A stretch of DNA of 64,000 bases from Mortierella sp. BCC40632 (taxonomy: Eukaryota; Mortierellomycota; Mortierellomycetes; Mortierellales; Mortierellaceae): NCBI GenBank assembly GCA_011634665.1, contig WAEK01000005.1, positions 860,001 to 924,000 on the forward strand. Reading direction: 5' to 3'. How positions within the stretch are numbered: the stretch's first letter is position 1; every line of letters begins with the position of its first letter. Positions 41,055-61,217 of the stretch are shown here, piece after piece. The translations under genes were made by a program, and so were the position numbers. The notes below the pieces were generated by a model that was given only the letters and a program-made list of their open reading frames with translations, was not told where the DNA came from and ran no database searches.

Positions 41055-41089
41055 CTATCCCTTAAACCGTTAGCCAGGCAAAAATGCCA
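41055..41089 (+). repeat. Left terminal inverted repeat of the Fanzor element
   Basis: CTATCCCTTAAACCGT pairs exactly with 45655-45670; after a 5-base length difference the block AGGCAAAAATGCCA pairs with the right repeat with three mismatches. Contains the small palindrome GGCAAAAATGCC. Confidence 0.65.
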
Positions 41090-41519
41090 TTTAACTTAGA
41101 AATTTTGGAGGTTTCCAGCCTTTTTCTCGAAAGTCTTTTTAAACCACAACCCCCCCTCCTCTATGGTCAGAAACTAGCAGATCAAACTACGTGCTGACAT
41201 TCACCATCAGAATCAGCCGGCATTGGGTAGGAATGCACCATCATGGAACCATGGGTCTACTCTTATTTATCTGAGAGATCACACCTGTGGTCCGTGCGGA
41301 ATTTATTAATAATTGTATTGTGCTAACAGCCGTCGCTCGCTTTGCTTGCTATGGCTGAAGATTCACTCGGTCACCATTATTAAAGAGAGAGGACAAACGA
41401 CTTTTTTTGATGAAAGTATCTGATGAATCGCTAAAGCACGGGATAGACACTGATGCGTAAGAGAGTGCAAAGAGAGTGGATGGGGCGGAATTTGGCTTTG
41501 ATACCTCGAGCTCCCGATG

Positions 41520-41550
<31 letters not shown>

Positions 41551-41620
41551 CGACTTTCTATCCACTTCTCTGGCACGCTTCCTCGCACCTTCGAAAGTTC
41601 ACTTTTATTCACTTCTGACC
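41090..41620. other. 5' region of the Fanzor element
   Basis: 531 bp between the left inverted repeat and the start codon, with no coding signal apart from a frame that runs into T29 (41522-41550). It would include the promoter. In known Fanzor loci the guide RNA comes from the element end next to the nuclease gene; I cannot identify one here. Confidence 0.45.
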
Positions 41621-44600
41621 ATGGGAGTTAAACAGGCCTGGAAAAAAGTTACGGACGCAGGCATCCCACGATCTTCTGTAGATCCGAAAGAGTTCCCATC
41701 TGTTCATATCGACCTCTTCTCCTTGTTTCTTCACTACATACTTGCCATTCTATTTTGGTTCCACACACCGCGCTCGTCTTCAAGAGGCAAGAAGCCAGAC
41801 AAAGAACCAGGTTGGGTCGCCAAGGCGCTCAATAAGAAGCTGGATCTTGTTTTCTCAAGGGATGCGATAATACACATCGACGGACTCCCCACCAGCGAAA
41901 AGGCCGTCGCCCGGAAATATCGCTCCAAGAGAGAGGAGGATAGCCGTCACCAGTGCTCCAGCTCACTGTCCGCATTCAATGCGGCAATCCAGCCTGGACA
42001 AGAGTACCCCGAAGGCGGCCTTCGCTCGGCGCGCAACTTGCGCCGACGGCTACTCCGGGCGTTCAAGAAAATGATGGTGTCCTGGAGAGGTGCAATGGAG
42101 ATCAGCATGGAAACGCGACACAGGCTGGCCAAAGACCTTGTTGCTCTTGGTCGTCATGCTCACGTCTGCTCTGGCGAGGCCGACAACTGTATTAGACAGG
42201 AAGCAATGAAGAGCAGCCAACGGATCTATGTCGCGACCACTGATAGTGACATGCTGTTCATCCCTAACGTCCATGTACTCAGGCAAGACTACAGCAACAG
42301 GTCTACATTCTATCTTTTTACAATCGACGACCAAGCCCTAGAGAAACTAGGGGTTCCTGACTTTGGGGTGTGGCAGACGATTGCCATTACTTCAGGTAAT
42401 GATTATTGCGACAACCTCAAAGGATTTGGTATCACCAAGAACCAGAATATTCTTGTGAAGCTGTGGAACCGTTCACCAGCAGGCCAAAGGACTGCACGTG
42501 CGCTGCTGGCGGGATACACGACTAGCTTCGATGCAGATCCGCATAAGTTTGATGCCGCGGCCAAGCTCTTTCTCGACGCGGAAGAGACGCCTCTCAAGCT
42601 CCCAGCCACGCCTTCCGAGACGAGCAGCCTGTTGGACCTAGTCTTGGCTGCCGCAAAGAGATTCCCCGAGGAGCTTTCCAGACTCAACTTTCAGATTAGG
42701 CAAGAAAAGTCTAAAGCACGAAGTAAGTAAGACTGAGTATTTTTTTTTTTTTCGATACTTGATTCCTTAGTCCTACGACGCTGCAGGGATTCATATCTAA
42801 TGGTACTTGTCCACTATTTTTTTTTTTTTTTTTTTTAAAAAAAAATGTCATCTAGGTTTAGAACCATTGCCTAGAGCGCCCTTTTCATTTTTGCTTGTTG
42901 ATGAACAGCGAAATGAAGACGCTGGGCCGACATGGCGTGGACCTAGATCTACGAAACGACCGGTCAAGGGACAAACAAAGCCGAGTTTTAAGCTTGTCCA
43001 ACCTCGAGGCATGGGGTTAATCGAAAATTTTCCAAGATCTCACGATGAGGAAGAGGATGAGGAGGTCTCCGACCCAAGTGTTGCTGGCGAGACGGCTCAA
43101 GGGAACATCGAACACACAAAAGACAAGGTCAATGGGTTGAAAATACAACAACAAGAGTGCCCTGTGGGCGAACGACTCGACTCTGACAAGCAGATTCTCA
43201 AAAAGCAAGGTGTATGCGACTTTTTTTGGATTGATGTAATTAAAAAATAAAGGATGCGAGAACTGATATTTTTTCGATTGATCCAAATGTAGGCAAGGTA
43301 TCAAGAGAGGAGCATCAACAAGTGAAGCAAAAAAGGCAAACGCACCACTAGATCCTCCACTGAAACGACAATGCAAAAAGCTGGCAAGAGCAAAGGCATC
43401 AAAGCTTGCAGTTCAAACGGCTCTAGGAACAGGAAGCGTAATGGGAACAGGATCATCCAACAGAGTATCGCCTGGCAATCTAATTGACCAAGCATTGGAC
43501 TCAACTTCTGACTGTATTACCCAGAAGCGCGAGCCGATTCTGTGGCGAGTAGCGTCAGTTTTGGAGGAGAGGTTGCCTTCAAAAACCAAAGAGGAGCGCA
43601 GTGGAGCTGCCAAGTATATTGCCGACACGGTGCTAGCACTCGCCAAATGCCACTCGGAGGCGACAAAAATTGGACTGTACATCGTACGGTGGTTTGTTGC
43701 CAAGACTGTTGCAGCCATGTACTCTGTGAATGGGAGTCAAGAGGATGGCAGAAAAAAGTTACAGATCCTAGATACGGAGGATTTTTGCCGCCAGCTCTTA
43801 ATGCTGCTATACTATGAAAACAGAACAAAGCGAGGGACTGTTGGCATGAGTCTAGCCAGGGAGGTAGTAGACGACTTTGCAAGGAGTGCAGGCCCCAATT
43901 TCAAACAACAACGAGATCGGCTCCAGTCGCACCTACAAGGACAAGTACCACAGTGTTTTTTTGAGAGTTCTGGCCGGAATCTGTACAGTATGTTGTGCAA
44001 AACGTTTGTCGAGTTTGTCCCCGAGTTGATCAAACGAGTAAGTGGTTCATGCTCTTTTTTTTTTTTTTTAAAAAAAAAAAAAATAGTTGTTAACTCAACG
44101 TAAAATTCTAGGTGCGTCGGCTGAACCCAGGATGGGCACAATCAACAGAGGGAGCAGCCATGCTGGAAGCAGTAGAGGAAAAAGGAATATCAGAGGCGTT
44201 TAGCCAGGCCGAGGTCTTCACAGTCCTCAACTTCCAGCTGCCCATCAAGGACCGACTAGAACTAGCTCCTACTGCAAAAGAATCAACGTCATTTCTCACC
44301 ATTTCTGAACAGTATTTTGTCCGCGCTATTTTTCGACAAGATTTGGAGCACAAAGTGGAACAAGGAATAATTAAGGATCTGTTAGGAGTCAGCTCCCAGA
44401 GAGAGGGATCTTCGAAGGCATCCAATCATCCAGGCGAGATCTACTACAGGCTCTTTGTCGGTGGGAGACAAAGAAGCAATTACGACAAGACTACCTGTGT
44501 TGGGAGGCCCTCATCGTCTCAAGTTCCGAGTCTTTTCGACTCTTTTGCAATGGCGGAAGAGGAGCTCGAGGAGGCAGCCCAGAAATTGCCAGGGCGAAAA

Positions 44601-45467
44601 AGAGCAGAAAGCTCGACGGCAGTAGCTCAAGGCGACGAGAGTGAAGCCAAGAGACGATATGGTCAACTAAAGACTCAATTTGTCGAGATGACAAAGGAGA
44701 GGATTGCAATTCTGAAGAAAACCAAAAGTTGCCAGATCGAGAAAGAAAGCATGCCAGCAGCGATTTCTCCACAGCAGAAATACTGCTTGCGAGGGACGAT
44801 GGTAACGGACGGATATCAGTTGCGGCTGCTTGCGTACCGTCCTCTAGATCCAAAGACTGAAAAGTTTCAAAGGCCCAGGATCAAAGCCGAGGCAGCCAAC
44901 GCGAGTGCTCATCCTCTGAACGTAGGCCGAACCACTATCCGGTATGCGACAGAGCTCTTTGCGAACAAAGAGACTGTTTTACAGCTTGTTGGCGATAGCT
45001 ACGTGGTGATTGGGGTTGACCCAGGGATAGCGGAGCTTGTCACAGCAGAGGACATACAACTGGCACACACAGGGGATGAGACACCTAATGCAACTCGTCA
45101 AGGAGACAGACGGGATCAATGCAGTAGAGCAAACGATAGTCCCAGTAATTAATATGGTGTGTATTGTGTAGACCAAAGTGAGGAGAGTAGCTAACGATTT
45201 AATCGTTTTATTTGTGGATGACAGGCAAAAGGGATGGGAATCATTGTCTGCCTAGTTGACGAGTTCAAGACATCGCGGCAATGCTGCCTCTGTGGTTTGA
45301 AAACAGAGGAGATGAAAAGAAATCTTGTATGCAAGGCAGGAGGAGGGGTCCAGCATGATGCAAGCCGTGATCGTGATATCAATGGGGCTCACAACATGGC
45401 AATGGCGGCACACCACTGGTTGTCCAAGATGGAATGGCCATGGTTCTTGCGCCGGATAACCAACTAG
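41621..45467 (+). CDS. FEN1/XPG-like flap nuclease fused to Fanzor/TnpB-like RuvC protein (RuvC part degenerate)
   Basis: Five exons: 41621-42722, 42856-43209, 43298-44037, 44112-about 45156, 45225-45467. Residues 1-300 are a FEN1/XPG/Rad2 domain: MGVKQAW start and metal-binding acids at D31 (VHIDLF), D87 (IHIDG), E186 and D188 (SGEAD), D208 and D210 (TTDSD) and D261 (SGNDYC, with the H3TH-like stretch NLKGFGITKNQ). Skipping intron 1 would end the protein at a TAA; splicing at gtaagt instead continues in phase through an acidic linker into a long basic region with a TnpB/Fanzor-type block (CLRGTMVTDGYQLRLL), RuvC-I (VIGVDPGIAELVTAED) and, in exon 5, RuvC-III with zinc-finger part (VDEFKTSRQCCLCG...SRDRDINGAHN). 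RuvC-II is not found, and the frame shifts by one between about 45020 and 45076. The second zinc CxxC is incomplete. The fusion is seen in the sequence; activity is doubtful. Confidence 0.75.
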
Positions 45468-45630
45468 GAGCGCTCTGCTCCCCAAGTCGAGTGTGGAGCT
45501 CGACAATAATTATCCCGTATTGGTAAGCAATTCATGGGCAATTCACGGAGATGCAAGCCAGGCCAACTCAAACATAACCAGTAGTGGATGCTAACCCTCT
45601 CTTTCACTCTTTCACTCCTATTTTTTTGAC

Positions 45631-45670
45631 TGGCGAATTTGCCTATTAAACCTTACGGTTTAAGGGATAG
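45631..45670 (-). repeat. Right terminal inverted repeat of the Fanzor element
   Basis: Ends ACGGTTTAAGGGATAG, the exact complement of the left end; the inner part TGGCGAATTTGCCT matches the complement of the left AGGCAAAAATGCCA with three mismatches. Also contains the palindrome AAACCTTACGGTTT. Confidence 0.65.
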
Positions 45671-57310: not shown

Positions 57311-60300
57311 ATAAAAAGAATTCTGGATCTTTATATGGGACCACGGTCGTAAATGTTATTGGTGATTGTCCAGAAGGAGTGTTCCCTAAACCCACAAATT
57401 GTCCAGAAACGTCGAGTGACATTTCTAAACAATCAGAATCATGTCCCTCCAGCTCAAGTGAGCTTCGTATCTCCTCCCAGCCTAAAATTGTCGATCCAAG
57501 TGGGTTAACAATTGATCCCAGGTCCGAGACCAAAGTTGGTTTCCGGTTCTCAGCGAGTGCCATTCCCAGTCCAACCCCGTTAAATGTCGTCGGTTCGTGA
57601 GCCGCTGCCTGTTCAAGATACCAATAGTAGCCTTGGCCCCGAGTTCCCTGCAAGTGCAGAATGTAGTGCCGTGTCCCGTGAATCCAGTAGTGAGTCAGAC
57701 GACTCAACCTTCACTCCCAGTCCCCAGAATAAGTTTTCTGCTAGTCCATGTCCAGATTCCAACAGTCAGGAAGTTAACCCTGAATTACCAGAAGAAATCG
57801 AAGACGAACCTCTCATGTATGTGGCCGGTCGTTTCAAGGATCATACTATCGACATTATGGTAGATAGCGGCGCATCCGCAAGTTACATTAATTACGAGGT
57901 AGTCAAGCGCCTTCATATCGCAACGTCAAAAAGCGAAATCCAACAACAGTTGCGTTTGGCAATGGCCAACCAACACTTTGTACCCAATATTGCCACATCC
58001 GACTCCGACTTGCCGACAATTTTTGCCCAGTAATCCAATTCAATGTTGTCGACATGAAATTTGAAGCAATCCTGGGCAAACGTTGGCTGGCACATAGTAA
58101 ACCGCAACCAATATTAGACCTTGCCAACCACGTCATCCGAGTCGAACCTGACATTGTAATCCAAGGATACACCCGACCGACACACCAACCAGTATTGTCC
58201 GCAATGCAATTCAAACGTTCCCTTGGAAAACACCAAGCCTACTTGTGCATTGTGCGATCGAACGAGGAGGATAACAAGAAAAGCGAAAGTCAGCCACCGG
58301 AGGTAGAAGTTCTCCTAGAAAAAAATACAGCGATGTATTTCCAGAGGAACTCCCGAAAAGAACTACCTCCTGAGCGTTCAGTAGACCATCACATTGACCT
58401 GATTCCTGGATCGACGCCGCCCTCTAGGCCTACCTATCAACTTTCCTTGGCCGAAATGGACGAGCTCAAAAACAAATTGATGACCTGCTACGACACGGGT
58501 TCATTAGACCTAGTCAATCCCCTTACGGTGCTCCTGTATTGTTTGTGCGGAAAAAAAAGGCGACTTGAGAATGTGCATTGACTACAGAGCATTGAACAAA
58601 CAAACAATCAGGAATACTTATCCGTTACCAAGAATTGATGAGTTGCTTGATCGACTGAACGGCGCAGAAGTGTTTAGCAAAATGGATTTACGAACAGGTT
58701 ATCACCAAGTTCGAATTCACGAAAACGACGTACACAAGACCGCTTTTCGCACAAGATACGGCCTATATGAGTTCCTTGTGCTGCCATTCGGATTGACCAA
58801 TGCTCCTGCCACCTTCATGACATTAATGAACGAAGTTTTCCGAACCGAACTGGATGGTTGTGTGATCATATACCTCGACGATCTATTGATATTCAGCAAG
58901 AACATGGAACAACATTTAGTTCATTTGGAAATTATCTTGCGCAAATTACGAGAACATCGACTGTATGCCAAGCTGTCCAAGTGCGAATTTGCCAAGAGCG
59001 AAGTTGGCTTCCTAGGACACATCGTGTCCAGCAAGGGCGTATCGGTCGACCCCTCCAAAGTCCAGGCAATAGCCGAGTGGCCAGCCTTGCGCTGTGTCCT
59101 AGATATCCAATCGTTTCTGGGACTTGTCAACTACTACCGACGCTTCATTCACAAGCTCGCCAAGATTGCCGCTCCCCTCACTGAACTACTGAAAAAAAGA
59201 TGTGACCTTCCGATGGTTGAAAGAACAAACGTGCGTTCAAAAATTGAAAAAGGCAATTATGAACGCCCCAGTCCTGGCTGTCTTCAATCCCGAACTCCCT
59301 GTTGAAGTCCATGTCGACTCCTCGAAATATGCTATTGGTGCAGCGTTAATGCAGAACGGTCGACCAGTCGCGTTCGAATCAAGGAAACTGTCCGCTGCAG
59401 AGATTAATTACCCAATCCATGAAAAAAAGAACAACTTGCCGCCGTCCATGCACTCCAAAAATGGCGAGTATATCTGCATTCGACAGCCGAGCCCTTTATT
59501 GTTTTCACCGATCATGAATCACTAAAATATCTGGATACAAAGAACACGCTCAGTCCTCGCCAAATTCGCTGGATGGAAAAACTAGCAGAGTATAATTTTG
59601 TGATACGATACAAAAAGGACCACTCAATGTTGTACCTGATGCTCTTTCAAGAAGGCCGGACTACCAAGATGCAGCCAGTATGGAGTCAAAACCAGTAATC
59701 GGATCCACAATCTTGGAAGCTTGCAGAGAGGCCTACGAGGAGGATGAAGATTTTGGCGATTGGTTGAAACGAGTTAGAGCAGTTCAAGGAAAGAATAACC
59801 CGTACGAGTTCACGCTCCATGACAACCTCCTCTACCTTAAGAAAGACATGCGATTATGTGTACCCAACCTACCAGAGGAAAAGTCTACGATCATGAAGGA
59901 AATCCATGACTCGTCGTTAGCAGGACACCTTGGTGTTGACAAGACATACGTCCGGCTATCTGAAGGATACTATTGGCCGGGCATGTGGCAATCCGTCAAA
60001 AATTATGTTAGCTCGTGCCACGAGTGTCGACTTAGCAAGCACAGAACGACAAAAGAACTGGGGCTATTGCAGCCATTACCCATTCCAGAGAAACCTTGGA
60101 CGCACATTGCAATGGACCTGGTGACACATCTACCTAAAACGAAAGCAGGACATGATGCAATAGTAGTATTTGTGGACAGGTTTAGTAAAAGCCGCTGTGT
60201 TTGTCGCCACAAAACCAGTTGCACCGCCAAAGGATGTTGCCAACATATTTTTCCAGCAAGTGTTCCGACATTATGGAGTTCCCAAGTCAATCGTGTCGGA

Positions 60301-61217
60301 CCGAGACACCAGATTCACCAGTACATTCTGGAAGAGCCTTTTCGAGCATCTTGGAACGAGTCTGAACATGTCAACCGCTAGACATCAACAATCAAACGGA
60401 CAAGCAGAGCGAATCATCCAGTCCTTGGAACAGTATCTGCGCTTATACACGAATGAGGCTCACGATGATTGGGACGAATTCCTCATCCATGCCGAGTCTG
60501 CGCATAATTCTGCCAAGTCATCCGCTACAGGACTTAGCCCATTCGAAGTGATGTATGGACACGTACCGTTAACACCAGCGACACTCTTGACGGAAAAAGC
60601 TCATGTGGTCAAACAACCTAATGTGAAAGAAGAGATGGAGAAACACCAAGCGAGATTCCGAATTGTTTATGACGCTATCCAAGACAGTCACAAAAAGTAC
60701 TCTGACCAGTACGATGCCCACAGACGCGAGGCCATATTTGAAATAGACGATCTTGTCTATATCGACGCAACCGATATCAAAACCGCCACGGAAAATGCGA
60801 CAAAGGAGGTCAACAAACTGAGGAGACCATTCCTAGGACCTTACAAAATTATTGCTCAACCAAGTCCCTTGAACTACAAGTTGCAGTTACCTCCCTAGAA
60901 GTCGACTGCATCCTGTGTTCCACGTCTCCAAGCTCAGGGCTACTACTCGTAGGAGTGACGAGTTTGCGGATAATGAAGAGCTGAGGCCTGACAAGGAACC
61001 TCTCATTGACGATAGCGATGAGTACTATGAACAGCCCTATGAGGTGGAGCGAATCGTCAAGCACAAGAAGACAAAGGAAGGTCTAATTAAATTCCTAGTC
61101 AAATGGGTTGGTTTCCCGGTAAAAGATAGCACTTGGCAGACGCTCGAAGACCTCGAGAACGCACAGGATGTTATTCAAGATTACCGAGATACTCTCAAGG
61201 AGAAGGACCTCTTTTAA
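57311..61217 (+). pseudogene. pol region of the chromovirus (PR-RT-RH-IN-chromodomain), frame-broken
   Basis: Protease active site DSGAS near 57864; reverse transcriptase 58054-59200 with MCIDYRALN, FSKMDLRTGYHQ (first catalytic Asp kept), PFGLTNAP and YLDDLLIF; RNase H from about 59250 (HVDSSKYAIGAAL); integrase with HHCC finger (GHLGVDKT...CHECRLSKH) and DDE residues in AMDLVTH, SDRDTRF and NGQAERI; C-terminal chromodomain (YEVERIVKHKKTK, LVKWVGFPVKDSTWQ) ending at TAA 61215-61217. Frame breaks lie near 58033, 58320, 58551, 59192, 59423, 59630, 60180 and 60893. All catalytic motifs are intact, so breaks may be recent or artefacts of the assembly. Confidence 0.92.

Follow-up and report, generated by a model that had tools for sequence, protein, structure and literature searches.

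The window analysed here is a stretch of 64,000 nucleotides of contig C5 (WAEK01000005.1, positions 860,001 to 924,000) of Mortierella sp. BCC40632, whose genome of 49.9 Mb in 62 contigs was searched as a whole, and the subject of this report is a split gene on its plus strand that is predicted to join a FEN1/EXO1-type 5' nuclease to a Fanzor protein. Judged by its sequence, a mobile element occupies the locus, in the form of a damaged terminal-inverted-repeat (TIR) copy of 4,614 bp (41056..45669, plus strand) whose limits are common to its sister copies and which has TATCCCTTAAACCG at both ends. Exon 1 (41621..42722) encodes the FEN1/EXO1-type nuclease domain, and intron 1 (42723..42855) runs from GTAAGT to TAG, contains the stop codon TAA at 42728-42730 and keeps the frame when it is spliced out. 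Exon 2 (42856..43209), which encodes the linker, and exon 3 (43298..44037), which encodes the end of the linker and the N-terminal part of the Fanzor half, are also joined in frame, and a single open frame links exons 1, 2 and 3 to the start of exon 4 at 44112. The acceptor of exon 3 is placed at the AG at 43296-43297 because of the frame from the donor at 43210; a more canonical TAG ending at 43292 was rejected as it breaks the frame. Exon 4 (44112..45048), which was delimited by its frame and by comparison with the sister copies, encodes the Fanzor part up to RuvC-I and is truncated at its 3' end in the window, and exon 5 (45225..45467) encodes the alternative RuvC-II glutamate, the zinc-finger cysteines, the RuvC-III RD and the stop. 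The sequence-only reading, that the exon phases carry the frame from the FEN part into the linker and the start of the Fanzor part, is borne out as exons 1-4 join open. It also had the frame continue into RuvC-III, and of this the two motifs stand, RuvC-I GVDPG at 45012-45026 and the RuvC-III RD with its D at 45375-45377, but an intact run between them does not.

Comparison with its sister copy L009 reveals two gaps in the window copy: about 50 bp are missing after 45048, and some 400 bp between 45148 and 45163. The segment 45049..45163 is a remnant between and beside these two deletions, which removed the middle of the RuvC domain, and the end of exon 4 with its donor site is among the deleted bases. 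The window copy was read as it stands with no deleted bases restored, and splice options that join its leftover pieces exist but differ from the site in the sister copies. By this comparison the window holds a damaged copy of the transposon and not a working gene, and the sequence-only reading is to be corrected on this point. A DNA search of the genome found, besides the window copy itself and one short fragment, six sister copies of 94-97% identity, four of which are almost full-length, the other two being partial or rearranged. L009 is translated from five exons into 1,302 residues with no stops, one stretch of its exon 3 being in a different frame between two compensating indels, and the sisters L010-L014 show indels, truncation or rearrangement. 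The window and its sisters form subfamily A; copies of two more subfamilies, B and C, have 67-71% DNA identity to the window gene in most matching pieces and the identical FEN-RuvC order, and the elements are 7.2 kb (L015, subfamily B), 5.05 kb (L009) and 4.6 kb (window copy) in length.

An intact gene of this kind is found at L029 (C9:2241800-2247000), with the gene itself at C9:2242145-2246631; its six exons, separated by GT-AG introns, give an open frame of 1,346 residues. Its exons were chosen from enumerated splice options with homology as a guide, the acceptor of exon 5 being ambiguous by 12 bases. At the DNA level the gene is single-copy, except that its final 136 bases recur and that there are weak partial matches. 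At L032 an open reading frame (ORF) of 395 residues extends from the C-terminal helices of the FEN half through to the N-terminal part of the Fanzor half with no stop, and a single structure model matches EXO1/FEN1 and solved Fanzors in one chain. When two FEN queries were used together with Fanzor queries, 40 of the 65 FEN clusters in the genome had a Fanzor within 5 kb downstream compared to 0.28 expected, and chance pairing is thereby excluded; the first count, with one FEN query, had given 31 of 47. Six reverse or opposite arrangements were listed, and on reading the list five of these, all except C10:1170104, involve clusters of a neighbouring pair or element. Forty-four of the 84 Fanzor clusters had no match to the two FEN queries. 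A search of the genome with XPG_I gave 18 places, of which four were strong and are probably host genes, and ten of the 14 weaker ones, as compared by eye, are followed on the same strand by a Cas12f1-like_TNB match at a distance of about 2.7-3.3 kb. A further FEN-Fanzor subfamily was found at C9:1225530, C4:2275823, C20:84101 and C24:325728; three of these sites have an open FEN frame of 479 residues, and each of the four is followed by a TNB match some 2.9 kb downstream. Among the Fanzor clusters without a FEN match that were looked at, L039 holds FEN fragments and L040 matches neither profile.

The same arrangement recurs in the databases. A protein search with L029, which covers 0.55-1.75 times the query length and so takes in neither Fanzors of 400-700 residues that stand alone nor short FEN proteins, found 53 proteins, 42 of which match both the FEN and the Fanzor profiles, 11 the Fanzor profile only and none the FEN profile only, the last figure to be read with care because of this length range. 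The FEN matches were at about 1e-30 or better in 39 of the 42 (4.9e-16, 1.8e-9 and 6.6e-4 in the rest), with profiles that are not independent of the query because both include an L029 piece. Precomputed XPG_I annotation is present in six of the 53, and together with Cas12f1-like_TNB in three (P0014, P0017 and P0019). A second search with a 37-row profile gave 16 matches, 13 of them new; all 13 match FEN (P0066 over 35 residues only), seven match the Fanzor core as well, and the remaining six end before it. Thus, 49 of the 66 relatives, which are gene predictions, have both halves in one predicted polypeptide. Homologues that are always split into two genes, which the sequence-only reading had named as evidence against itself, were not found. 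The names attached to the relatives are Mortierella, Dissophora, Linnemannia, Podila, Haplosporangium, Entomortierella, Actinomortierella, Benniella and Gryganskiella, nine genera that we take to be Mortierellaceae, and P0066 is nameless. With the window-type protein of L009 as the query no relatives were found among 7,985 scored candidates, and none of 60 pattern matches in viral contigs was confirmed as a relative.

As for the N-terminal half, its structure model has the fold of the FEN1/EXO1/XPG 5' nuclease superfamily, it has the M1-G2 start, and the seven metal-binding acids (D31, D87, E186, D188, D208, D210 and D261) are in the window copy at the positions that had been read from its sequence. 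They are invariant in six diverged sequences of this genome, the window included, and nearly invariant where present among the database relatives. The earlier assignment to FEN1 holds as far as a FEN1/EXO1-type nuclease is concerned, but FEN1 itself is not singled out, because EXO1 and FEN1 are tied as the nearest solved folds with EXO1 nominally first, and by sequence profile Rad2 ranks at the top. Pfam found no family, XPG_I included, in the FEN exon of the window, and the XPG_I score of the relative P0008, from Mortierella sp. GBAus27b, was 21.6 bits against a cut-off of 24.9; by Pfam alone the FEN half in the window is missed, and it takes profiles or structure to see it.

The C-terminal half has, in the structure model, a TnpB/Fanzor fold with RuvC. 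The last exon of the window matches Pfam Cas12f1-like_TNB at 7.7e-8, and it passes the Pfam cut-off even though the window subfamily has three of the four zinc-finger cysteines; in the database rows that have the residue (26-27) each cysteine is kept in 25-26. The alternative RuvC-II glutamate, which in the available text of Yoon et al. (PMC10711439) is a Fanzor trait when it lies six residues upstream of the zinc-finger motif, is E 45261-45263 in the window, followed by FKTSRQ and then CCLC, and it is E in 26 of the 29 rows having a residue there. The same text describes DPG at RuvC-I as occurring "near exclusively" in Fanzors. The window subfamily has DPG, and the 37 database rows have DLG (27), DGG (5), DAG (2), DMG (1), DPG (1) or a gap (1). 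When the profile of the Fanzor C-terminus was compared with PDB sequences the best match was the TnpB-like L79 at 5.5e-8 and SpuFz was at 0.07 only, and therefore structure was required for the link to Fanzor.

The ratios of nonsynonymous to synonymous change (dN/dS) of L009 against two subfamily B copies, for which dS was mostly above 1 and hence near saturation, were 0.15-0.17 in the FEN part, 0.24-0.33 in the linker, 0.23-0.39 in exon 3, 0.14-0.15 in exon 4 and 0.17 in exon 5. Against a subfamily C copy they were 0.14 in FEN, 0.63 in the linker, 0.24 in exon 3 and 0.19 in exon 4. In the database rows the FEN and Fanzor distances correlate with an r of 0.70, which was reached in none of 2,000 permutations (32 of the 37 rows had enough residues), and the mean identities in the same rows are 0.40 for FEN and 0.42 for Fanzor. 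Taken together, sequence, predicted fold, conservation, selection and co-inheritance support a fusion of both halves, and it is almost certain, on sequence and structure models, that the main gene codes for a single polypeptide, about 1,100-1,350 residues long, consisting of a FEN1/EXO1-type 5' nuclease, a linker and a Fanzor.

The element that carries this gene is bounded by a left TIR (41056..41069, plus strand), which is TATCCCTTAAACCG with an outer TA as a candidate target-site duplication, and a right TIR (45656..45669, minus strand). This repeat has 31 matches in the genome compared to none for the reversed control pattern. Both ends are present in four of the seven A copies (window, L009, L010 and L012), the other three having the right end only, and in five of the six B copies, L018 being the exception with a right end alone; the three C copies yielded just the left end. 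A TA lies at the outer edge of every TIR end found, in a search whose pattern itself contained TA, and these borders would fit a TA target. A non-coding block of about 140 bp at the left end (41056..41195) is conserved between A and B/C in alignment and is a candidate guide-RNA or transposition site: the A-B and A-C identities are 0.68-1.0 per 20 columns within it and 0-0.55 beyond it, where B and C remain alike. Its core motif GGTCAGAAACTAGCA (window 41165-41179) is identical between subfamilies and has 13 matches in the genome, all within the left-end part of these elements, compared to one for the reversed control. At L036:1443-1530 there is a miniature element of 88 bp that carries the same TIR, and this suggests mobilisation in trans. 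A second ORF lies upstream of the FEN part in subfamily C (L021:7790-8839, plus) and in subfamily B (L015:1377-1955, plus); the two appear related by eye and point opposite ways with respect to the fusion gene, and the C one has no Pfam match. Rfam and tRNA scans of the window gave no matches. Elsewhere in the window, at 58514-60381 on the plus strand, there are open frames whose translations resemble Ty3/gypsy reverse transcriptase and integrase.

A tentative explanation of what such a protein does, with slightly less than even odds of being correct, is that it is a cut-and-resect homing enzyme. The Fanzor half, with a guide RNA from the end of the element, would cut the element-less site, guide-directed cutting by Fanzors having been established in relatives (PMC10432273, in the text available). 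The FEN/EXO1 half would then digest the 5' strands, or 5' flaps, at the fresh break to leave 3' single strands, and this resection would favour repair by copying of the element-bearing sister or homologue. The architecture and this mechanism jointly we regard as slightly more probable than not.

Several observations weigh against this explanation or against how generally it would apply. The substrate of the FEN half cannot be read off from the structural tie and the profile ranking given above, and a need for 5' processing is not general because the ends left by other characterised Fanzors are, in the published accounts available, blunt, mixed or 3'-overhanging. A Pfam search of five pieces of the window and the extra ORF of subfamily C found no DDE, HUH or recombinase domain. 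None of the candidate guide-RNA regions folds convincingly above shuffled sequences: the left-end block gave -15.9 on the minus strand against -10.6 for shuffles (standard deviation 3.7) and -7.3 on the plus strand against -5.7 (3.0), the right end gave z scores of 0.32 (A) and -1.25 and -1.39 (B), and a hairpin GTCGAG..CTCGAC just 3' of the stop (45486..45504, plus strand), which is retained in subfamily B, gave -1.6 (A) and -2.4 (B), none of which was accepted as evidence. Within subfamily A (L009 and L012) the dN/dS of exons 1-5 was 0.22, 0.18, 0.94, 0.14 and 0.64, all on few changes, and it is the values of exons 3 and 5 that count here. Between B and C copies it was 0.33, 0.77, 2.0 and 0.38 on 129, 51, 29 and 118 codons, and by these values the constraint is weak or absent; the B frame used has stops in four of five pieces, as is expected of decaying copies. 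With the protein queries, 25 of the 65 FEN clusters had no paired Fanzor, and some of these may be stand-alone FEN relatives; among five that were looked at, four (three on C25 and C15:170481) are B or C copies whose RuvC half is visible at the DNA level, and the fifth, C2:2011237, which a strong XPG_I match overlaps, is probably a host gene. Finally, L033, L037 and L038 are Fanzor copies without a full FEN upstream; a C-terminal stub of FEN remains in L037, a Ty3/gypsy-like ORF precedes L038, and L033 matches the L032-type locus at 98% over 1.9 kb only.

It is unlikely, though the best of the other explanations, that the FEN half serves to excise or integrate the TIR element, trimming 5' flaps or opening hairpin ends where the Fanzor breaks the DNA, in which case the fusion would be the whole transposition machinery. 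This would agree with the structure-specific 5' nuclease fold of the FEN half, with the TIR shared by the 88-bp miniature, and with the fact that L009 has no long sense ORF outside the fusion gene (ORFs of at least 80 residues, part of them family-searched). However, the lack of transposase and recombinase domains in the pieces searched speaks against it, the TA is only a candidate target-site duplication, and we know of no TnpB or Fanzor protein that excises its own element. Less likely still, the FEN half could mature the guide RNA by trimming the transcript of the element from its 5' end, in the manner of XRN-type relatives, which degrade RNA from that end. That FEN and Fanzor are two neighbouring genes joined by gene prediction only is very improbable. 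The unspliced sequence does have the TAA at 42728 after exon 1, and the ORF of L032 could hold a readable intron because the subfamily C copy L021 has such a read-through. This explanation was nevertheless rejected as unlikely since the L032 ORF crosses the junction, conserved linker residues at L028 and L030 lie before the first ATG of the linker ORF, the junction introns preserve the frame both in subfamily A and in L029, and FEN-Fanzor models recur across many named species. Equally improbable is a catalytically dead FEN half that merely positions the Fanzor on DNA, which conservation of the fold alone would permit but the near invariance of the metal-binding acids does not favour.

The cut-and-resect protein proposed here resembles Fanzor1 proteins (SpuFz1, PpFz1 and GtFz1) in its fold and in having the RuvC-II glutamate at the alternative place, six residues ahead of the zinc finger. 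According to the published accounts available, it differs from them in its N-terminal FEN/EXO1 domain and its length, which is 400-700 residues in Fanzor1, and its family mostly has DLG at RuvC-I, with DPG in the window subfamily and one of the 37 database rows. With EXO1, FEN1 and XPG of the Rad2 family it shares the fold, the seven metal-binding acids and the E-x-D pair, but its identity to EXO1 and FEN1 is about 15-16%, it sits in a mobile element and it is fused to a Fanzor. Like the element of Spu-1 in the available text of Saito et al., the element here has inverted repeats, and no transposase was found in the pieces searched. Fanzors in fungal DNA elements, several of these without a transposase of their own, were described by Bao and Jurka in 2013 (PMC3627910) from Mucor, Rhizopus and Phycomyces, and the fungal examples in the text available have MuDR-type TIRs with 9-bp target-site duplications or no recognisable TIR. 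An extra domain on a fungal Fanzor is also present in PpFz1, but its FRI domain is described, in the text available, as a small cyclophilin-binding insertion and not a nuclease. The words XPG, flap and Mortierella do not occur in the available texts of PMC3627910, PMC10432273, PMC10711439 and PMC11423790, nor does FEN in the first of these. Titles and abstracts of the papers found by literature searches gave no description of a FEN-Fanzor fusion, so that the architecture, which the sequence-only reading did not know as described either, is provisionally regarded as undescribed.

The biological roles of Fanzors are still unknown according to the part of Saito et al. available. That nature has fused a Fanzor to a nuclease that processes ends, and has kept the active sites of both in many named species, directs attention to the events after the cut, and the repair/homing hypothesis can be tested directly by mutating either active site. 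The fusion also provides a eukaryotic nuclease from nature that might tip repair in favour of homologous recombination, and, slightly more tentatively than the mechanism itself, the fungi of the Mortierella group may harbour widespread self-contained, RNA-guided cut-and-resect homing enzymes that would need neither a transposase nor a host resection step at the start.
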